Under the pieces are notes generated by a model. It saw only the letters and a program-made list of their open reading frames with translations, was not told the DNA's origin and searched no databases. Shown in pieces: positions 14,916-56,700 of a stretch of DNA of 64,000 nt. This DNA is from Bacteroidales bacterium. GTDB lineage: Bacteria > Bacteroidota > Bacteroidia > Bacteroidales > UBA932. The translations under genes were made by a program, and so were the position numbers. Each line of letters starts with the position of its first letter. Positions within the stretch are counted from its first letter, which is position 1. Where the stretch lies: the NCBI GenBank assembly GCA_017442315.1, contig JAFRZX010000042.1, positions 1 to 64,000 of the forward strand, given 5' to 3'.

Positions 14916-16049
14916 CTAAAGCTTACGTGCACCGTCACTGATCACTACCGGAATTTCAATAGGTTCATGGCCGTATTTCTCTGCAAATGCGGCCTTTGCC
15001 TTTGTTATGAATGCATCATAAAGTTCAGCCTTCACAAGGTTGATGGTGCATCCTCCGAAGCCGCCTCCCATGATTCGTGAACCTGTCACACCACATTCCT
15101 TAGCCACTTCAGCAAGGAAATCAAGCTCTTCGCAAGAAACTTCATAATCCTTTGACATACCCCAGTGTGTCTCATACATACGGGCGCCAACTGTCTCGTA
15201 ATCTCCCTTTTCGAGAGCATCGCAAACATCAAGGACGCGTCTTTCCTCACCTATCACATAACGTGCACGAAGGTAGTCCTCTTCGGAGATCTGGTCTTTG
15301 ATTGCTTCAAGCTGGTCCATTGTCGCTCCACGAAGGAACTCCTGTCCGAGTACCTTTGCAACACGCTCACAAGATGCACGACGGTCATTGTATGGAGAAC
15401 CCACAAGTTCATGTTTCACGCGTGAGTTAAGGAGAACGAGCTTATAGCCATGCTGCTCAGGATCGAACGGAAAGTATGCAAACTCCATAGAACGGCAGTC
15501 CAGACGCATCAGATTTCCAGCCTTTCCGAATACAGAAGCAAACTGGTCCATGATTCCGCACTTAACCCCGCAGTAGTTATGTTCTGTACTCTGACCTATA
15601 CGTGCCAGCTCAAACTTGTCAATGCCGAGATTGAAAAGATAATTAAGAGCAAACGCAAATGTACTTTCAAGAGCAGCTGACGAAGACATTCCTGCTCCAA
15701 GAGGAACATCACCGGCAAAGACGGTATCGAAACCAGCTATCTTTCCTCCCCTCTTCTGTATCTCACGGCATACACCGAAAATATATCTTGCCCAGCTCTG
15801 TGAAGGAGCATCTTCCTCATTGAGTCCGAATTCACAATATTCATCCAGATCAAGAGCAAAAGCACGTACCTTATCTGTTCCGTTAAGTCTGATTTCAGCA
15901 ATCATGCCTTTATCAATGGCTCCGGGAAAAACAAATCCACCATTGTAATCGGTATGTTCGCCAATAAGATTGATACGTCCTGCAGACGCAAAGAATTCAC
16001 CCTCTGTCTGGAAAAGGGTCTGGAATTTTTCAGCAATTCTATTTTTCAT
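14916..16049 (-). CDS. galK: Galactokinase
   Basis: A 377-residue GHMP-family kinase that phosphorylates galactose at C1 with ATP. Signature motifs are GRINLIGEHTDYNGG (about residues 23-37), the ATP loop VPLGAGMSSSAALES (about 116-130) and the C-terminal GSRIMGGGFGGCTINLV. The catalytic aspartate lies in CGIMDQFASVFG. It converges on the CpXC gene, with 7 bases between stop codons and no obvious terminator hairpin. Confidence 0.97.
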   Translation of the reverse strand: MKNRIAEKFQTLFQTEGEFFASAGRINLIGEHTDYNGGFVFPGAIDKGMIAEIRLNGTDKVRAFALDLDEYCEFGLNEEDAPSQSWARYIFGVCREIQKRGGKIAGFDTVFAGDVPLGAGMSSSAALESTFAFALNYLFNLGIDKFELARIGQSTEHNYCGVKCGIMDQFASVFGKAGNLMRLDCRSMEFAYFPFDPEQHGYKLVLLNSRVKHELVGSPYNDRRASCERVAKVLGQEFLRGATMDQLEAIKDQISEEDYLRARYVIGEERRVLDVCDALEKGDYETVGARMYETHWGMSKDYEVSCEELDFLAEVAKECGVTGSRIMGGGFGGCTINLVKAELYDAFITKAKAAFAEKYGHEPIEIPVVISDGARKL

Positions 16050-25034: not shown

Positions 25035-28000
25035 TTACTGTAACTTCTTTAGAACAGAATAAGCTTTGGAAATACTGTCAATATTACGTGAAAATATTCT
25101 CAGACGATCATCATTCTGCTTCAGCTCAAAAAGAGAAGGATTCTTTGATACATTTTCAAGAACCTTTGCAAACTTGTCACTTTTATAATATCGGGATAAT
25201 GGATTTGAAATAAAGAATGCTATCATCACTCCATTCTTTATTATTATCTTTTCAAATCCTGTATTCTTTCCAAGCTGTCTTATCCTTACAATGTCAAACA
25301 ATCTGCAAAGTTCTTCCGGCATGGTTCCGAAACGGTCTGTAAGCCTGCTTCTCATTGTATCAAGTTCCTTATCAGATGAAAGAGAATCCAATTCCTTATA
25401 AATCCTTATTTTTTCAGCAGTAACATCTATATATCCGTCAGGGATCAAAGCAATCTGATCAGTCTCTATGGTACAGTCTGATATATAACTGTCGTCTATG
25501 TTTCTTGAAGACAATCCAGTCTCCACTCCTAATTCTTCCATAGCTTCGGCGAGGATCTTCTGATATGTTTCAAATCCCATATCAGTAATGAAACCACTTT
25601 GTTCAGCCCCCAGCAGATTTCCTGCACCCCTTATATCAAGATCCTGCATTGCTATATTGAAACCGCTTCCTAAATCCGAAAAAGCTTCTATAGCTTTAAG
25701 TCTCCTTCTTGCATCTTCCGTTATAGACACCAAAGGAGGAACCATCAGGTAACAGAAAGCTCGCTTGTTTGATCTTCCTACACGTCCTCTTAACTGATGA
25801 AGGTCACTCAAACCTATATTCTGGGCCTGATTTATTATTATAGTGTTGGCATTAGGTATGTCAAGACCGTTTTCTATGATTGTGGTACATAACAGCATAT
25901 CATAATCTCCTGCCATGAAGTCCAGTATCTTATTTTCAAGAACCTTTGACTCCATCTGGCCATGAGCAATGCAAATCTTCATATCAGGAACCAATCTATG
26001 AAGAATATCATGAATAGATTGAAGTTCTTCCACTCTGTTATGTACAAAAAACAATTGCCCTCCCCTGTTAAGTTCATACCTTATGATCTTTCTTACCTCA
26101 TCATGGTCGAAAAGCATTATTTCAGTCTGTACCGGTATTCTGTTTGGAGGTGGAGTGTTTATGATAGACAGGTCTCTTGCACCCAATAGAGAAAACTGAA
26201 GTGTGCGAGGTATAGGGGTTGCTGTCAAAGTAAGAGTATCGACAGAAGCTTTCAGCTGTCGTAATTTCTCCTTGGCTCCTACACCGAATTTCTGTTCTTC
26301 ATCTATTATAAGCAATCCAAGATCCTTGAATTCAAAGCCCTTTCCTATAAGTTTATGCGTACCTATGACAATATCAAGGATTCCCGACTTCAATTTCTTC
26401 TGGATATCACTTATTTCCTTTGCTGTACGCAATCTGCTTACATAATCTATATTGCAAGGAAAATCTTTAAGACGATTTCTGAATGTATTATAATGCTGAA
26501 GAGCCAGAATAGTAGTAGGAACCAATACTGCAACCTGCTTGCTGTCCGCTACAGCCTTGAAAGCTGCTCTGACAGCTACTTCTGTCTTTCCAAACCCTAC
26601 ATCACCACATACAAGTCTATCCATAGGACAGGTATCTTCCATATCTCTCTTGACAGCATAAACCGCCTTTTCCTGATCAGGTGTATCTTCATACATAAAA
26701 GATGATTCAAGCTCCTGCTGCAAATAAGTATCTGCAGAAAAAGCAAAACCACGAGCACTCTTACGCTTTGCATACAGCTGTATAAGATCCTTGGCTATAT
26801 CCTTTACTTTTGACTTTGTTCCGGCTTTGAGATTCTGCCATACCCTGGATCCCAGCTTATGTATCTTGGGAGGTTCAGAATCCTTTGATTTATAACGGGA
26901 AATCTTATGAAGAGCATGAACGGATACAAAAACCACATCATTATCCTTATAAGTAAGCTTTACAACTTCATGCATCCTTCCCTTATCATCTTTCATTCTC
27001 ACAAGACCGCCGAAAATACCTACTCCATAATCTATATGGACTACATAATCACCTATAGCGAAAGAGGTAAGATCATTTATAGTAAGCTGCTCGCTTCTGT
27101 CAACAGTCCTACGGATACTGACACGATGAAAACGGTCAAATATCTCATGGTCACTGTAACAACATACCTTATTGTCATGATCGATGAAACCGTTATGGAT
27201 ATTGCAGCCGGATATGAATTCAGGAAGAAGTCCTCCGTTCTGTGAAAGTATGGATTTAAGTCTATCGAGCTGAGATTGCTTCTCACCATATATCCTGACC
27301 CTATACCCCTTTTCCATGCAACTTCTTATATCCTCAGTAAGCAGTTCGAAGTTCTTATTGAACACCGGCTGAGGTGATATATTGAACTCCACATAATCTG
27401 TTTGCTGTCTTGAAAGCGGAAGTTCCATATATATTCTTCGGAACCTGCCCACGGAAGCAAAGAAGTCCTTGTTATTGTACATAGCTGAAGAATCCAGCCA
27501 TAAAAGAGTATCGGAAGGAAGAATATCCATTATGCTGATTGTCATGGAATCCTCGTCTGATACTATTATATCGGGATATATCTCCGCATTATCAACTTTC
27601 TGTACAGAAAGCTGGGTATTGCAGTCGAACATATTCAAAGATTCTATTTCGTCACCGAAAAAGGATACTCTGACAGGATTGCTGTAAGAATATGAAAATA
27701 TATCCAATATAGCTCCACGTACGGCAAACTGACCAGGTTCTGAAACAAAATCCACCCTTTCAAATCCGCTGTTGAACAATATATCCACCATATCATCCCG
27801 ACCCGATTCATCCCCCACCGAAAGTTTCAATATGGATTGACGTATCTTTTCCTCAGAAGGTATCCCCTCCTCTATAGCTGCCGGATAAGTGACAATGAAC
27901 AACTGCTCTCCCTTATTTTCAAGTATCTTTCCTATTGCGGATGTCCTCTGTACTCCCAAAGAAGATTTATAATTACTCCTCTCAAGACTTTTTCCAGAAG

Positions 28001-28223
28001 CAGGCATAAAGAACACTTTATCCCCTTCAATAAGATTATACAGATCCGAAGCACAATATTCTGCAGAATCCTTATCAGGTAGTACAATCATCTGAAGTCC
28101 ATCTTTATCAATCTGAGAAACAATGAACCACCTTGCTGATAAAAACAATCCGCTGCAGAATACCTCATCGGTATCCGCAATCTTTTCCGCTAATATACTT
28201 GTGCCTTTCTTACTTATTAACAT
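25035..28223 (-). CDS. mfd: Transcription-repair coupling factor Mfd
   Basis: A 1062-residue SF2 translocase that removes stalled RNA polymerase and recruits excision repair. In order: UvrB-homologous N-terminal region (about 1-330), CarD-like RNA polymerase interaction domain (GDYVVHIDYGVGIFGG, about 395-410), helicase core with Walker A GDVGFGKTEVA and the DEEQKFGV Walker B box, motif VI region HQLRGRVGRSNKRA, and the C-terminal TRCF domain. It is somewhat shorter than the E. coli protein (1148 residues). It begins at the edge of the AT-rich candidate origin. Confidence 0.97.
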   Translation of the reverse strand: MLISKKGTSILAEKIADTDEVFCSGLFLSARWFIVSQIDKDGLQMIVLPDKDSAEYCASDLYNLIEGDKVFFMPASGKSLERSNYKSSLGVQRTSAIGKILENKGEQLFIVTYPAAIEEGIPSEEKIRQSILKLSVGDESGRDDMVDILFNSGFERVDFVSEPGQFAVRGAILDIFSYSYSNPVRVSFFGDEIESLNMFDCNTQLSVQKVDNAEIYPDIIVSDEDSMTISIMDILPSDTLLWLDSSAMYNNKDFFASVGRFRRIYMELPLSRQQTDYVEFNISPQPVFNKNFELLTEDIRSCMEKGYRVRIYGEKQSQLDRLKSILSQNGGLLPEFISGCNIHNGFIDHDNKVCCYSDHEIFDRFHRVSIRRTVDRSEQLTINDLTSFAIGDYVVHIDYGVGIFGGLVRMKDDKGRMHEVVKLTYKDNDVVFVSVHALHKISRYKSKDSEPPKIHKLGSRVWQNLKAGTKSKVKDIAKDLIQLYAKRKSARGFAFSADTYLQQELESSFMYEDTPDQEKAVYAVKRDMEDTCPMDRLVCGDVGFGKTEVAVRAAFKAVADSKQVAVLVPTTILALQHYNTFRNRLKDFPCNIDYVSRLRTAKEISDIQKKLKSGILDIVIGTHKLIGKGFEFKDLGLLIIDEEQKFGVGAKEKLRQLKASVDTLTLTATPIPRTLQFSLLGARDLSIINTPPPNRIPVQTEIMLFDHDEVRKIIRYELNRGGQLFFVHNRVEELQSIHDILHRLVPDMKICIAHGQMESKVLENKILDFMAGDYDMLLCTTIIENGLDIPNANTIIINQAQNIGLSDLHQLRGRVGRSNKRAFCYLMVPPLVSITEDARRRLKAIEAFSDLGSGFNIAMQDLDIRGAGNLLGAEQSGFITDMGFETYQKILAEAMEELGVETGLSSRNIDDSYISDCTIETDQIALIPDGYIDVTAEKIRIYKELDSLSSDKELDTMRSRLTDRFGTMPEELCRLFDIVRIRQLGKNTGFEKIIIKNGVMIAFFISNPLSRYYKSDKFAKVLENVSKNPSLFELKQNDDRLRIFSRNIDSISKAYSVLKKLQ

Positions 28224-28511
28224 TATAGGTATTTTTTGGTTGATAACCTGTTGATAAACCTGTTTAAAACAAATGAAAACTAATTTGGCAAATGAAAGTT
28301 ATCCGTATATACCGGCAATTAAAATTCATTTCAAAAAAAACTTAATATTTTTTATCAATCAATTTACATCAGGGTTATCAACATGTATCACAATATATAA
28401 ATATATGATATTTAAATATTTGCACTTATTATCAACATATCAACAATAAAATAATAAACATCATTTATTAAAAATAAAATATATATTTGTATATAATTAT
28501 TTTGTTGTGAT
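28224..28511. other. Candidate chromosomal replication origin (oriC)
   Basis: A 288-base, very AT-rich gap between divergent mfd and ruvB. It holds repeated TTATCAACA, one base from the DnaA box TTATCCACA: 28375-28383 and 28429-28437 on the plus strand, 28249-28257 on the minus strand (TGTTGATAA). Near variants lie at 28238-28246 (GGTTGATAA) and 28437-28445 (ATATCAACA). The AT-only stretch at 28384-28500 could be the unwinding element. Left of it most genes read leftward and the plus strand is C-rich; right of it most read rightward and the plus strand is G-rich. dnaA is not adjacent, which is usual in Bacteroidota. Confidence 0.6.
28482..28489 (+). promoter_or_regulatory. TAnnTTTG element upstream of ruvB
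   Basis: TATATTTG, a perfect Bacteroidota -7 box, 22 bases before the ruvB start codon. No matching TTTG element is found 19-21 bases upstream, so this is a half-site call. Confidence 0.45.
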
Positions 28512-29540
28512 ATGGCTAATGATTTCGACCCGCACAATATCAACGATGGCAAAGATAAGGATTTGGATGGAATAATACGTCCTCAGGACCTTCAGGACTT
28601 TACCGGACAGGATAAGATTGTATCTAATCTTAAGATTTTTGTTGCCGCAGCTAAAATGAGAGGTGAATCTCTTGATCATGTCCTCTTTCATGGGCCTCCT
28701 GGTCTGGGAAAGACTACTCTTGCACATATAATAGCCAACGAATTAGGTGTGGGAATGAAGGTTACATCCGGTCCTATACTCGATAAGCCTGGCGATCTTG
28801 CCGGTCTTCTTACATCTTTGGAGGAAGGTGATGTATTGTTTATTGATGAGATCCATAGGTTGTCCCCTGTCGTAGAGGAATACCTGTATTCGGCCATGGA
28901 GGATTTTGTAATAGATATAATGATCGATAAGGGACCAGGTGCTCGTTCGGTAAGAATATCTCTTAATCCTTTTACACTTGTAGGTGCAACTACCAGAAGC
29001 GGACTCCTTACCTCTCCCCTACGTGCCAGGTTTGGAATCACATGCGCAATGGAATATTACGATACCTTGACTCTTGTAAACATAGTAAAGAGAAGCGCAT
29101 TCATTTTAAAGGTATCAATAGATCAGGATGCTGCATATGAAATAGCATTGCGCAGCCGCGGTACACCTCGTATCGCCAATTCTCTGCTTCGTCGTGTCCG
29201 TGATTTTGCACAGGTTATGGGAAGCGGGAACATAGATCTTTCAATAGCACGTTACGCTCTGGATGCATTGAATATAGATAAGAGAGGATTGGATTCCATT
29301 GACAATAAGATTCTCAGGACCATAATAACAAAGTTCAAGGGAGGGCCTGTGGGGGCCAATACCATTGCTACTGCCGTTGGAGAAGACCAGGGGACGTTGG
29401 AGGAAGTTTATGAACCGTTTCTCATAAAGGAAGGATTTATTATGAGGACTCCTAGGGGTAGGGAAGCCACAGATCTTGCATACAGACATCTAGGATTAGA
29501 GAAAGGAAATGTCGATATGAATGATCCTTCTCTCTTCTGA
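28512..29540 (+). CDS. ruvB: Holliday junction branch-migration motor RuvB
   Basis: A 342-residue AAA+ ATPase that, with RuvA, drives branch migration of Holliday junctions. It has Walker A ([12 protein letters not shown], about residues 60-71), Walker B ([12 protein letters not shown]), sensor 1 ([20 protein letters not shown]) and a C-terminal winged-helix domain ending in [10 protein letters not shown]. ruvA is encoded separately at 38414-39001 on the other strand, so the two are not one operon here. Confidence 0.98.
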
Positions 29541-36278: not shown

Positions 36279-38384
36279 ATGCGGAAGAATTACGATGTTA
36301 TAGTTGTAGGAGGTGGACATGCCGGATGTGAGGCAGCGATGGCAGCTGCGCGGATGGGTTCTTCGGTTCTACTCATTACAATGGATATGAACAAGTACGC
36401 CCAGATGTCTTGTAATCCAGCAATTGGTGGAATAGCTAAAGGTCAGATAGTCAGAGAAATAGATGCTTTAGGAGGGTATACTGGCATTATCACTGATGCC
36501 TCTACTTTACAGTTCAGAATGCTTAACAGGTCAAAAGGACCGGCTATGTGGAGTCCACGCGCGCAGTGTGATAAAATACAATTTTCTTTGTACTGGAGAA
36601 AATTACTTGAAAGTGCTTGTAAATTAGACCTTTACCAGGATTCTGTTGTGTCTTTTCTGTTTTCAGGATCGCGTATTTCGGGAGTATGTACTACTACTGG
36701 AGCAATATTCAATTCTCAGACACTTATTCTGACAGCCGGAACTTTCCTTGATGGCAGACTTTTCATTGGACGTAATATGTTTGAAGGTGGAAGGATAGGA
36801 GAACTTCCGTCTCATGGTCTGACAGAACAGTTGGTCAGCATGGGGATAAAGACAGCCAGGATGAAAACCGGTACACCTCCTCGAATTGATATATCTTCTG
36901 TCGATACATCTCGTATGGTGCATCAGTATGGTGATGAACATCCAGAGAAGTTTTCATATCTTCCATTTCTTTCTACAGCTCAGAACGGAACACCTCAGAT
37001 GCCGTGTTACGTAGTTCACACAAATTCTGAGGTTCACGATATTTTAAAGAGTGGATTTTCTGAATCTCCTTTATTCTCCGGCAAGATTACAGGGATAGGT
37101 CCGAGATATTGTCCGAGCATTGAGGATAAGTTGCGTACTTTTGCCGATAAGAATGAGCATCAGCTTTTCCTTGAGCCTGAAGGTAGAGGTACTAATGAAT
37201 ATTATCTCCAGGGTTTTTCTTCATCCCTTCCTATAGAGGTGCAGATGGATGCTCTCCATCATATCAAGGGTTTGGAAAATGTAAAGGTTTACAGACCGGC
37301 TTATGCTGTTGAATATGATTATTTTGATCCTACTCAGCTCAAGCCTACTTTAGAACTTAAAGATATCGATAATTTGTTTTTCGCTGGACAGATCAATGGT
37401 ACTACCGGTTATGAAGAAGCTGCTGCACAAGGTCTTATAGCAGGTATTAATGCTCATTTGAAAGTCCATGAGAAGGATCCTTTCATTCTAAAAAGAGATC
37501 AGGGTTATATAGGAGTCCTTATTGATGATCTTATTACCAAAGGTGTTGATGAGCCTTACCGGATGTTTACTTCTAGGGCTGAGTATCGTATTCTTCTTCG
37601 TCAGGATAATGCCGATCTTCGTCTTACACCATTATCATATGATATAGGTCTTGCTGATTCATACAGGTATGATTATACAATGAGAAAATATGATTCAGTA
37701 GGACGTTTTAATACTTTCTTTGAGGAAGCATCCCTTAAGCCAGAATCGGTAAACGGTTACTTGTCTTCTGTATCTTCCGCTGAAGTTAGTTCGAGAAAAA
37801 GAATTGCCGATCTTATATCTCGTCCACAGACAGAAATTATTGATTTATTTAATTTGGTTCCATGTGGAACATTTTTAAAACATAATATTAATTGCAATAG
37901 TGAGTTTGCATCTCCTTTAAAAGATTTATTATCTGAATCTTATAAATATTCTGATATTCTGGATTATATGCCTTATAGTGAAATAGATAAGTGTTTTACT
38001 GATACATATCCCGCTGATATTTCATATAAAGATGCAGCATATGTTCTTCAGTTTAATACGGAATATCCTTTAAGCAGATTAGATAAGGGCTTTATGGATG
38101 ATTCTATTAATGAAAATTATAAGCGCGATATATTAAGTTCTTCTGAGATATCAATAAAGTATAAAGGATATATTCAGCGTGAGCAGCAGATGGCTGACAA
38201 GATAATGAGACTTGAAAATCTTGTCATTCCTGATGATTTTGATTTTGACAGGGTAGAGAGTCTTTCTATAGAATGTCGTCAAAAGCTTAAGAAATATTCA
38301 CCTCGAACAATTGCTCAAGCCTCCAGAATTTCAGGAATATCCCCATCTGATATATCGGTTTTGCTTGTGTATTTTGGCCGATAA
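36279..38384 (+). CDS. mnmG: tRNA uridine 5-carboxymethylaminomethyl modification enzyme MnmG, with an extra segment
   Basis: A 701-residue FAD enzyme that, with MnmE, modifies the wobble uridine of several tRNAs. It shows the FAD motif [19 protein letters not shown], the [12 protein letters not shown] motif, GTGLYRF-like [20 protein letters not shown], and the C-terminal [20 protein letters not shown]. It is about 70 residues longer than usual: after FNLVP (about residue 529) an AT-rich insert runs to about residue 620, where the normal sequence resumes at [11 protein letters not shown]. The insert begins at the parS-like site at 37856-37871. The 3' third is noticeably AT-richer than the rest. 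Confidence 0.95.
37856..37871. promoter_or_regulatory. parS-like palindrome 1 (inside mnmG)
   Basis: GGTTCCATGTGGAACA, two bases from the ParB-binding consensus TGTTCCACGTGGAACA. It encodes VPCGT at the left edge of the extra segment of MnmG. Two more sites of the same type follow within 2.3 kb. Confidence 0.45.
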
Positions 38385-38387
38385 TAT

Positions 38388-38415
38388 AAAAAGAGTTCCA
38401 CGTGGAACTCTTTTT
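38388..38415. terminator. Bidirectional terminator between mnmG and ruvA, containing parS-like palindrome 2
   Basis: A perfect 28-base palindrome: five A, GAGTTCCA, CG, TGGAACTC, five T. It separates the convergent mnmG and ruvA, and its right T-run overlaps the ruvA stop codon. The core GTTCCACGTGGAAC (38395-38408) is an exact match to the core of the bacterial parS site, so it may also bind ParB. Confidence 0.75.
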
Positions 38416-39123: not shown

Positions 39124-40350
39124 ATGAATATCGAGTCAGTCAGATCATTGTTTCCAGCACTTTCAAGAAAGGTGTATGGGAAAGATCTCGTATATCTCGA
39201 TAATGCTGCAACCTCACAAAGGCCACAATCAGTTATTGATGAATGGAACAGGATTACAACGGAATCAAATGCCAATATTCATAGGGCTGTACATTGTCTT
39301 TCAGATGAAGCTACGCAGGCATATGAAAATTCAAGAGATGCCGTCAGGGAATTTCTAAATGCCGAAAGCCGTCAGGAAATAATCTTTACAAGCGGAACCA
39401 CTGCTTCTGTAAATCTTGTTGCTTTCAGTTTCGGAGAAACTTTTATCAGTGAAGGGGATGAGGTTATCGTAACTGAGGCTGAACATCACTCCAATATTGT
39501 TCCATGGCAAATGATGTGCAATAGGAAAGGTGCATCGTTAAAAGTCCTTCCTGTAGATGATGATGGTCATCTGATGTTGGATAAATTGGATGAACTGATT
39601 ACAGACAGGACAAAAATATTGGCTGTTACCCATATTTCAAATGTCCTTGGAATAATAAATCCTGTCAAGGAAATCATATCCAGATGTCACGACAACGGTG
39701 TTCCTGTACTAGTAGATGGTGCTCAGGGAATAGTTCATTGTGATGTGGATGTTCGTGATCTTGATTGTGATTTCTATGTTTTTTCAGGTCATAAGCTATA
39801 TGCTGCGACAGGCACAGGTGTCTTGTATGGAAATAAAAAGTGGCTTGAAAGCATGATTCCATATATGGGTGGTGGTGAAATGGTCGGAACGGTTTCTTTT
39901 ACCGGTACTACCTATGCACCTCTGCCTATGAAGTTTGAGGCAGGAACACAGAACTTTGCATCAGCAGCTACCTTCAAGCCAGCATTAAATTTAGTTAAAT
40001 TATTGAATAATAATGATTTAATAAAATATAATGATAAAATCAGAGACTTTGTTCTAGATGTGATACAGAGAGATGACAGGATTCGTCTTTTTGGCGTTCC
40101 ACGGGGAACTATCCAGAATAAGATACCTCTCTTTTCTTTTGTGGTTAATGGAGTGCATCATGAGGATCTTGCGTTGATTCTTGATAAGATGGGCATTGCA
40201 GTAAGATCAGGACAGATGTGTGCAGAGCCTCTTATGGATAGGTTTGGAGTGACTGGTATGCTGAGGGTTTCCTTTGCTCCATATAATACTATGGAAGAAG
40301 CGGAATATTTTATTGAATGTTTGAATAGGGCAATAAATATGCTGATTTGA
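39124..40350 (+). CDS. sufS: Cysteine desulfurase SufS
   Basis: A 408-residue PLP enzyme that takes sulfur from cysteine for Fe-S cluster assembly. It contains the PLP lysine in FYVFSGHKLYAATGTGVLYG (about residue 226), the EAEHHSNIVPWQ histidine, and the catalytic cysteine loop in AVRSGQMCAEPLMDRFG (about residue 365). The start is the ATG at 39124 (MNIESVRSLFP); the longer frame from 39004 includes non-conserved leader. Together with sufE and sufT it forms a Suf operon, but sufBCD are not in the window. Confidence 0.95.
   Translation: MNIESVRSLFPALSRKVYGKDLVYLDNAATSQRPQSVIDEWNRITTESNANIHRAVHCLSDEATQAYENSRDAVREFLNAESRQEIIFTSGTTASVNLVAFSFGETFISEGDEVIVTEAEHHSNIVPWQMMCNRKGASLKVLPVDDDGHLMLDKLDELITDRTKILAVTHISNVLGIINPVKEIISRCHDNGVPVLVDGAQGIVHCDVDVRDLDCDFYVFSGHKLYAATGTGVLYGNKKWLESMIPYMGGGEMVGTVSFTGTTYAPLPMKFEAGTQNFASAATFKPALNLVKLLNNNDLIKYNDKIRDFVLDVIQRDDRIRLFGVPRGTIQNKIPLFSFVVNGVHHEDLALILDKMGIAVRSGQMCAEPLMDRFGVTGMLRVSFAPYNTMEEAEYFIECLNRAINMLI
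40095..40110. promoter_or_regulatory. parS-like palindrome 3 (inside sufS)
   Basis: CGTTCCACGGGGAACT, with a 13 of 14 match to the core GTTCCACGTGGAAC. It encodes VPRGT in a variable region of SufS. It is the weakest of the three sites, since coding constraint or chance could explain it. Confidence 0.3.
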
Positions 40351-53785: not shown

Positions 53786-56700
53786 TTACGCTGTATTTGA
53801 TACCCATTCTGTTGAGATCCTCGACAAAAGTTGCCGTTACGCTTACCCTGAACTTTCTTGAAAGGAACTCTATGTTCCATTTCTTTTCCGGATCATAGAG
53901 GAACATTGTAAGAGGTATGTTACCTTTGTTCTTCTTGATCAGTCTGACAAGATTCTCTCTGAATTCCGGTGTAAGCATAGGTGTTGATATGCTGATTGAG
54001 AAACCTTTAAGAAATGTGTCCGTCACATTGCCCAGAAGCATTATCTTCTTGACTTTGAATGCATATGGTGAAGTCTTGCCCTGTGCTCTTTCTTCCGGTT
54101 TCAGATAGAACTTCTCATCAATCTCTCCTTCTATGAAGATAGCTTTGTGAAGTTGTGTATGACTCATGAATGCTTCATGATCCTTGCCGAAGAGGGAAAG
54201 TTCGTAGCTTCCTCCATAGTCTTCAATGACAGTCTTCGACCAAGGACGTCCGGTCTTGGTCTGCATCTGCTGATTCGAGGTTACGAATCCTGCTATACAG
54301 GCTTTCTGTTTGACTTTTTTTGCTTCGGCTTCCGCTACAAGCGTGTCTATTTCACTGACCTGACAGGTTGTGAAATTCTCCATCTCGAACTGATATTGGT
54401 CCAGAGGATGTGCAGAAAGGTACATTCCCACCAATTCCTTTTCAAACTTCAGTTTTTCAAGGACATCGTCTTCACCGGTCATTGCAGGAATTTCAGGCCT
54501 CTCTGGTTTGAGTTCTTCTGCATCACCGAAGAGCGAAACTGAATTTTCTTCATTGTCTCTTTTATACAGTTCACCGTATTTCAGGAGGGTGTCGATGAAG
54601 AAATCTCCATTTTTGCATGGAAGCATGAATTGCTTTCGGTTGAGGCCGAAGCTGTCGAATGCTCCGGAATGCAGAAGTGATTCAAAGGCCTTGCGGTTGA
54701 CTATACCGGACATACGTTCCACAAAATCATATATGTCGGTGAAGTTTCCGTTTTCCTCCCGTTCAGAAAGGATGGCCTTTACAATATTGTCTCCGAATCC
54801 TTTGATTCCTCCAAGTCCGAAACGTATTTCTCCGTTATGGTTGACTGTGAAGCGGGCATCTGATTCGTTTATGTCCGGATTAAGGACTTTTATGCCGTTC
54901 TTCTTGCAGTCATCCATGATCTTCTTGATCTCATCCATGTTGGATAGATTCTTTGTGAGGTTGGCTGCCTGGAATTCAGCAGGATAATGTGCTTTCAGCC
55001 ACCCTGTCTGGTAGCTCACCCATGCATAGCATGTTGCGTGTGATTTATTGAATGCATATGATGCGAACTTTACCCAGTCTTTCCAGATCTTTTCAAGCAC
55101 ATCCTGTGGATGACCGTTTTTGATTCCGCCATTGATAAACTTGTCTTTCAATGAGTTAAGAAGGTCTATTATCTTCTTTCCCATTGCTTTTCTCAATGTG
55201 TCCGCTTCTCCGCGTGTGAAATCCGCCAGCTTGCGTGAAAGAAGCATTACCTGCTCCTGGTAGACAGTGATGCCATATGTGTCCTGCAGTATGTCTTCCA
55301 TCTGAGGAAGGTCATATACTATTGGCTGGCGTCCTTGCTTTCTTTCTACGAAATCCGGTATATAATCCATCGGCCCCGGACGGTAGAGTGCATTCATGGC
55401 TATCAGGTCTTCAAAGCGGGTAGGCTGTAGCTTGATGAGCCATTCCTTCATACCTGGGGATTCAAACTGGAACACACTGGTAGTATCTCCACGGCTGTAT
55501 AGAGCATATGTCTGAGGATCATCGATAGGAATCTTCTCTATGTCGAACTCCACGCCAAAACGTTTCTTGATATTGGCCTGACATTCCTTTATTATGGATA
55601 AAGTCCTCAGTCCTAGGAAGTCCATCTTCAGCATGCCGACTTCTTCTATGTAATGGCCGTCATACTGAGATACCCAGACTTCTTCTCCGGTAAGTTTGTC
55701 ATTGGCAATGCAGATAGGAATATACTCAGTAAGATTTCCGCGTCCTATTATCATTGCGCAAGCATGTACGCCTGTCTGCCTTATGCAGCCTTCCAGTTTT
55801 CCTGCATAGTTCAGAACGTCCTTTACTTCATCCGTACCGTTGGCCAGTTCTTCCTTCAGCTCAGGAATAAGCTTATAGCAGTTCTTTAGTTTCGGTTTGT
55901 ATGAAACCTCTTTCTTGTATTTCCTGAACTTCTTTTTGACTTTTATCTTTTTCCCTTCATTTTCAGGATCATCAACCTCCACTTCCTTTTCTATAACTTT
56001 CTGACCATCTTCCAATGTATCTCCCTCATTGAAAGGTTCTTCCGTATCCTCCATCTGGACAATAGGCTTGTCAGGAATCATCTTGGTGAGCCTGTTGGAT
56101 TCAGGAATAGGCATATTGCTGACCCTTGCAACGTCTTTGATGGCACTTTTCGCTGCCATAGTTCCGTAGGTGATCACATGGGAGATATGGTCTTTTCCGT
56201 ATTTTTCCTCTATGTACTGAAATACCCTATATCTTCCATCATCATCAAAGTCTATGTCGACATCCGGCATGTTTATTCGGTCAGGGTTGAGGAAACGCTC
56301 GAACAGGAGGTCATATTTTATGGGATCTATGTTTGTTATCTTAAGACAATATGCTACAGCAGAACCGGCTGCCGATCCACGTCCAGGACCCACAGAAATC
56401 CCTTCCGAGCGTGCTGCAGCTATGAAATCCTGGACAATCAGGAAGTAGTCAGGAAAACCCATCTTGCAGATTGTCTTAAGCTCGAATTCAATGCGTTCCG
56501 CCTGTTCCTCATTCAGAGTATCACCATACCTTTCCTGTGCTCCTTTATAGGTCAGATGGCAAAGGAATGCTACAGAATTGCAAAATTCCGTTCCGCGTTC
56601 ATTTCCGTTCTTGTCGCACCTTCCCTCGTCTATGATATGTCTGTATTTCTCAAGGTAGGTCTCTATGTCTTTCATGAATTCTACCGGAAGATCAAACTTA

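Follow-up and report, generated by a model that had tools for sequence, protein, structure and literature searches.

The closest described counterpart of the locus treated here is the basal unwinding system (BUS) of bacterial replication origins. The published search rule for a BUS comprises one or more DnaA boxes, a spacer and at least three NAN triplets with a central A, and the definition given in the same source places the DnaA box, which is often tandem, no more than 16 bp from these DnaA-trios (PMC8287927). In Bacillus subtilis DnaA, R202 and E228 hold the trio guanine and N187 holds the adenine, according to the account in PMC10721633. Among Bacteroidetes, an origin far from dnaA is described as usual (in the part of PMC4755523 that deals with this point), and the usual defaults of origin finders, as set out in PMC10225481, are an TTATCCACA box and dnaA as the indicator gene.

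The DNA analysed here (the window) is a stretch of 64,000 nucleotides of a Bacteroidales genome, in which the intergenic gap between the divergent genes mfd and ruvB (28224..28511), with a box at 28214 over the mfd start, is the proposed oriC. Judged from sequence comparison within and beyond this genome, the gap is almost certainly the oriC of the Bacteroidales chromosome, and the proposed origin very probably follows the standard bacterial plan with small lineage-specific changes in its recognition motifs.

The mfd-ruvB gap and its DnaA boxes

The gap is 288 bp long, has a GC content of 19.8% and is flanked by mfd, encoding the transcription-repair coupling factor (25035..28223, minus strand; Pfam DEAD, UvrB_inter, TRCF, Helicase_C, and CarD_TRCF_RID), and by ruvB (28512..29540, plus strand; Pfam RuvB_N, AAA_lid_4, and RuvB_C), whose best named matches are Bacteroidales MAGs, some of them labelled Candidatus Cryptobacteroides. 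Exact copies of the DnaA box TTATCAACA lie at 28249..28257 (minus strand), 28375..28383 (plus strand) and 28429..28437 (plus strand); the last of these is the first member of a tandem pair (BUS box 1) and sits in the best-conserved stretch of boxes. Near variants occur at 28238..28246 (TTATCAACC, minus strand) and 28437..28445 (ATATCAACA, plus strand; BUS box 2), and thus both the three sites in an AT-rich gap (two plus, one minus) and the two near variants on which the original prediction of an origin was built were recovered. A degenerate third minus-strand box, TTTTAAACA (28261..28269), carries two mismatches, and the family consensus around 28249..28257 consists of TGTTGAAAACC-type repeats with a spacing of about 11 nt. 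Just outside the gap, at the mfd start, stands the DnaA-box-like sequence TTATTAACA (28214..28222, plus strand), whose variable base, 28218, reads C in 65 of the 113 gaps from relatives and T in 38. The segment from the tandem pair to ruvB (28446..28511) is only 9% GC and, from this base composition, is presumed to be the DNA-unwinding element. It contains TATATTTG (28482..28489, plus strand), a presumed ruvB promoter element found in the alignment of the 113 gaps, where seven of its eight columns are invariant in all 113 and the eighth is A in 107; we take this element to resemble the Bacteroidetes promoter motif TAnnTTTG, and the gap presumably doubles as the carrier of the ruvB promoter.

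Three exact copies of TTATCAACA in the gap compare with a mean of 0.02 by chance, and none of 20,000 dinucleotide shuffles reached three. The 64-kb window holds six such sites (0.93 expected) and no exact TTATCCACA, and the box-cluster score of the gap is 12, with a next best score of 4 in the window. A genome-wide count, which the original prediction had named as a check, returned 57 TTATCAACA sites in the own assembly (2.80 Mb, 173 contigs), and nowhere but in the gap are three of them clustered; the only other pair less than 300 bp apart (C137:298/334) adjoins what was read by eye as the rpsL start. What the gap holds is, then, a cluster of DnaA boxes in an AT-rich intergenic region, one of the features by which an oriC is recognized. 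The 83-kb contig that carries the gap (C11), which makes up 3% of the assembly, has 9 of the 57 sites, six of these being outside the gap.

Box pair and DnaA-trio-like triplets in relatives

A divergent mfd-ruvB gap was present in 121 of the 125 loci handled; the four dropped were L017, L030, and L045, in which no mfd match was found, and L029, in which the mfd match lies on the other strand. Collapsing identical gaps reduced the 121 to 113 distinct ones, own gap included, among which near-identical gaps of the same species may remain. These 113 gaps, compared as had been proposed when the origin was predicted, keep boxes at recurring positions followed by a DnaA-trio element. The array starts with a box that overlaps the beginning of mfd; next come minus-strand boxes in tandem, spaced by about 11 nt, then a variable central part and finally, about 84 bp ahead of ruvB, the tandem pair TTWTCAACA-TWTCAACA. 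The best 17-mer of each gap differs from this box pair at 0, 1, and 2 positions in 39, 39, and 18 of the 113 gaps, respectively (two or fewer in 96). Another locus of the same family (L151, genome G604), in which ruvB has no mfd upstream, was kept out of the alignment for that reason; five one-mismatch boxes nevertheless lie upstream of its ruvB.

Five DnaA-trio-like triplets, AAT AAT AAA CAT CAT (28450..28464, plus strand), follow the pair, and their central A is conserved across the family. The trios were analysed in sequences anchored on the pair with no gaps allowed, which covered 110 of the 113 gaps and excluded three with 5–6 mismatches to the pair. In these 110 sequences adenine reaches 82–87% at offsets 22, 25, 28, 31, and 34, and stands at 17–65% between and beside them; the period-3 contrast of the central A is 0.395 against a shuffle maximum of 0.107 (2000 shuffles), and in the 76 sequences of less than 70% identity it is 0.362 against 0.125 (2000 shuffles). 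Of the 110 sequences, 103 have three or more NAN triplets in a row, the first of them no more than 9 nt from the second box, a count to be read with the ease with which AT-rich DNA yields such runs. The third base of the trio is G in 21 of the 463 triplets with a central A, so that the preferred 3'-GAT-5' triplet, a preference that lies outside the published NAN search rule, is rarely seen. Both elements of the BUS description are found in the gap, namely a box, here tandem, within 16 bp of the trios and an unbroken series of three or more NAN triplets whose central adenine is conserved. The anatomy of the gap fits the published rule, and the proposed oriC is, by its sequence features, a member of the DnaA/BUS class whose letters are a lineage variant.

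The pair is close to unique in the genomes that carry it. In the own genome the exact 17-mer occurs once, at the gap, with seven further matches at two or fewer mismatches (all with two), and the reversed control of the motif gives four matches at that threshold. Searching 300 genomes of the genus, among them the own one, gave 118 exact matches, spread over 113 genomes, vs. a single match of the reversed control; the remaining 187 genomes have no exact pair, and mismatched pairs are frequent among the aligned gaps. Thirty of the pair-motif loci were fetched, with ruvB in 28, mfd in 28 and either or both in 29; the exception (L344) has neither gene beside the motif and resembles coding sequence. 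The element is conserved across relatives at about one per genome, as is looked for in an oriC.

Its taxonomic reach is narrower. A search of 395 genomes of the order, the own one among them, found 22 exact pair matches outside the family vs. eight for the reversed control, and the array of the family is absent at all 22; 17 of them have no further exact TTWTCMACA box within 450 bp, and five have one (L233, L238, L239, L243, and L246). Given these counts and the missing array, the extra-family matches were set aside as origins and are mostly attributed to chance. A search for mfd upstream of ruvB gave no match in any of 16 loci of other Bacteroidales families (L149 and L152–L166). Because neither the array nor the mfd-ruvB setting was seen in the loci examined from other families, the mfd-ruvB origin site appears, as far as seen, to be a family-level feature.

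GC skew, partition-like sites and rival readings

On the 83,100-bp own contig the cumulative GC-skew minimum falls at 28462, within the trio triplets at 28450–28464, and it takes the same position on the 64-kb window alone; a two-segment skew fit on the window gives 28470. The G and C counts made by hand on three 60-base lines, from which a change of skew had been predicted, are exact, and the accompanying claim that the main gene direction switches at the gap agrees with the main open reading frames, 19 of 23 of which point leftward on the left and 15 of 25 rightward on the right (12 of 15 up to 49 kb). Since the own genome is split over 173 contigs, whole-chromosome skew was followed in the relative G402, a single contig of 2,657,245 bp sampled in 40 stretches (797 of 2,657 kb), the fortieth of which contains the gap. 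Skew is positive in 15 of 19 stretches from the gap to 1.28 Mb and negative in 17 of 20 beyond 1.28 Mb, and the curve, when interpolated, peaks at 1.28 Mb and is lowest where the record ends, a point about 16 kb away from the gap.

In five of eight relatives the skew minimum of the stretch examined lies in the gap or no more than 35 bp away. It is in the gap in G471 (15,575, within 65 kb), G500 (214,828, within 80 kb), and G402 (16,396, first 40 kb), 35 bp inside ruvB in G013 (418,065, within 320 kb; the ruvB match begins at residue 3, position 418,036) and 33 bp inside ruvB in G032 (263,158, within 60 kb). In the other three, skew is weak and irregular and the minimum is away from the gap: in G121 it lies at 165,842 in 300 kb of contig C3, with ruvB at 250,256, and G016 and G033 were followed over 40 kb each. 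The skew minimum that the original prediction had asked for at this position is thus present in the own contig and five of eight relatives, as looked for in an oriC, and absent from the three with weak skew. Fifty named loci whose flanks reach 9 kb or more on each side divide into 28 that are negative on the left and positive on the right, seven with the reverse and 15 that are positive on both sides. Because five of eight relatives agree and the others have weak skew, skew is taken as strong evidence for some members of the genus and as uninformative for the others. Weak or irregular skew in part of the genus (G121, G016, G033, and 22 of the 50 named loci) occurs despite a conserved origin array, and several of the weak-skew relatives still carry conserved parS-like sites.

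The partition site parS is a palindrome that lies near the origin where ParB is present. The own genome encodes a ParB-family protein on contig C160, and parS-like palindromes, recognized by sequence alone, occur at 37856..37871 (GGTTCCATGTGGAACA, two mismatches), 38394..38409 (AGTTCCACGTGGAACT, two mismatches), and 40095..40110 (CGTTCCACGGGGAACT, three mismatches); together with mnmG/gidA (36279..38384, plus strand; Pfam GIDA and SAM_GIDA_C) they lie about 8–12 kb from the gap. These own sites are weak (2–3 mismatches, with a further three-mismatch match at 15693; 0.21 expected in the window). Across six genomes, at one mismatch or fewer, the palindrome is found at 12 distinct places, nine of them within 17 kb of the gap and the other three on a 6-kb G471 contig (two) and another own contig (one). 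Among the named relatives, 55 have a complete right flank, and 39 of these carry one or more copies of a 14-base parS core with at most one mismatch; 80 loci give 75 copies vs. 1 and 0 for two scrambled controls, and these copies lie 7.8–10.8 kb beyond the ruvB start with two exceptions (L072 and L078). Many relatives have stronger parS-like copies than the own genome, at about the same distance from ruvB. The candidate origin is thus accompanied, in a genome with a ParB-family protein, by putative parS sites.

One relative, G471, carries a second copy of the array about 38 kb away, 285 bp long and 80.8% identical (L285, G471:C12:48000-60000, at about 54050-54066, minus strand), beside which the nearest open reading frame on one side resembles galactokinase by eye. 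Neither mfd nor ruvB gave a match in the surrounding 12 kb. The copy keeps the box pair and the trio region and lacks the aligned TATATTTG, with TATATTTC a few bases further on; since it stands without mfd, ruvB, and the aligned TATATTTG, it favours the array as a unit of its own rather than a ruvB promoter. The skew minimum of this contig is at copy 1, and a second local minimum at about 51 kb (3-kb bins) lies about 3 kb from copy 2, which may mark a second origin or a small inversion, both explaining it equally well.

These data bear on three other readings of the gap. The boxes might form a DnaA-regulated operator of the divergent mfd and ruvB genes, with the true origin elsewhere, as could be argued from the nearly invariant TATATTTG before ruvB, the box that overlaps the mfd start and the local skew minima that lie elsewhere in the three weak-skew relatives. 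An operator would not account for a skew minimum that falls in the gap on the own contig and, in five relatives, either in the gap or at most 35 bp from it, nor for the parS-like cluster nearby; a promoter has no need of the period-3 trio signature, and the second array of G471 keeps the pair and trio region with no mfd, ruvB, or aligned TATATTTG, which together make this reading very improbable. GC skew partly follows transcription, and gene direction does switch at the gap, so a skew flip due to local gene orientation only, with boxes that are a by-product of AT-rich sequence, was also weighed; it is given next to no credence, as the skew of G402 keeps its sign across roughly half of the genome to either side, none of the 20,000 gap shuffles gives three exact boxes, and the pair motif is found 118 times across the genus vs. 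once for its control.

A neighbouring site could instead be the origin, for example the mnmG/parS-like region 9–12 kb to the right, with the gap serving as an auxiliary DnaA-binding site. mnmG adjoins oriC in many bacteria, and the parS-like sites are located by mnmG; against this, six genomes, counting the own one, have their skew minimum in the gap or within 35 bp of it and not 10 kb off, and no box cluster in the window approaches the score of the gap (12 vs. next 4), which reduces the chance of such a displaced origin to a negligible one. The original proposal that the gap itself is oriC is supported by the box cluster, the skew minimum, the box-pair and trio anatomy, the near-uniqueness of the pair and the parS-like sites nearby.

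DnaA, a possible mechanism and comparison with known origins

In the own genome a single DnaA was found, encoded on contig C17 (L123:14609-16030); dnaA beside oriC, a common and not a required arrangement, is therefore not seen here (dnaA at C17:14609). The expectation voiced with the prediction, that dnaA in Bacteroidota is often away from oriC, agrees with what PMC4755523 states on the matter and with the place of the own dnaA on another contig. When aligned to B. subtilis DnaA (PDB 8btg), the own protein has L, A, and I at R202, E228, and N187. In 29 other Bacteroidota DnaAs (from 29 of 30 other genomes), R202 is never present, E228 is retained 15 times and N187 seven times; sampled class members outside the order have lost both R202 and E228 in seven of seven cases and kept N187 in two of seven. 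Four of five DnaAs from the genus lack R202 and E228, and the fifth (L111), which keeps all three residues in a genome with three DnaA matches, is for these reasons probably from a contaminant contig. The pairing of G-poor trios with a DnaA that lacks the guanine-contact residues is a suggestive correspondence. It is conceivable, though we regard it as rather unlikely, that the lineage, perhaps the class Bacteroidia, uses a shifted origin code in which TTWTCAACA boxes and G-poor trios go with replacement of R202, E228, and N187 in DnaA; strand opening would then proceed via a base-capture pocket unlike the one solved in B. subtilis.

By analogy with the BUS work in B. subtilis, from which both the order of steps and the mode of strand opening are inferred, DnaA would bind the TTWTCAACA boxes, with the tandem pair at 28429-28445 acting as its loading platform, and DnaA-ATP would extend from the pair onto the plus strand over the NAN triplets at 28450-28464. 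The adjacent 9% GC stretch would thereby be opened by DnaA for helicase loading, and forks would leave both ways, with mfd and ruvB transcribed away from the start. The boxes to the left of the pair (28214-28269 and 28375) may help to assemble or regulate the complex.

A base-level, conserved candidate origin is now proposed for a large uncultured gut genus, and its location and box letters differ from the usual defaults of origin finders. If the origin is true, the origin/terminus ratio from metagenome coverage could provide growth estimates for draft genomes of the genus, and the lineage offers a natural test of how a DnaA might read trios without the B. subtilis guanine pocket. New here are a candidate origin for an unmapped lineage, the A at box position 6, trios almost free of G, and a DnaA without the guanine-contact residues of B. 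subtilis. Searches of open-licence literature found nothing on a replication origin with Cryptobacteroides (absence from print or from DoriC is not claimed), nothing relevant on DnaA-trios in Bacteroid- taxa and nothing on replacements of the DnaA contact residues; for the box letters, the matches listed are, by title, mostly primer or probe sequences.

Among origins for which a prediction has been published, that of Prevotella intermedia, as outlined in PMC4755523, is similar in that its boxes cluster where the skew changes, at a long distance from dnaA; the likeness rests on cluster, skew, and distance to dnaA, and the mfd-ruvB setting here looks family-specific. The predicted oriC of the linear chromosome of Cyanothece 51142 also lists TTATCAACA as one DnaA box, in an unrelated lineage with other boxes (TTATCCATA) and an extra linear chromosome (from the entry in PMC4674748). 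The closest likeness is to the BUS-type oriC of B. subtilis, as far as it is set out in PMC8287927 and PMC10721633, with which the candidate shares tandem boxes, three or more NAN triplets in which the central A is conserved and an AT-rich stretch alongside; the spacer, counted from where the first box ends to where the triplets begin, is 12 nt here and peaks at 10–13 in the published systems (PMC8287927; PMC10721633). The two differ in the box consensus, TTWTCAACA with A at position 6 here vs. TTATCCACA in the B. subtilis-type oriC, in the third base of the trio, rarely G here (21 of 463) vs. a 3'-GAT-5' consensus in B. subtilis, and in the residues of DnaA, where L, A, and I stand in place of R202, E228, and N187.
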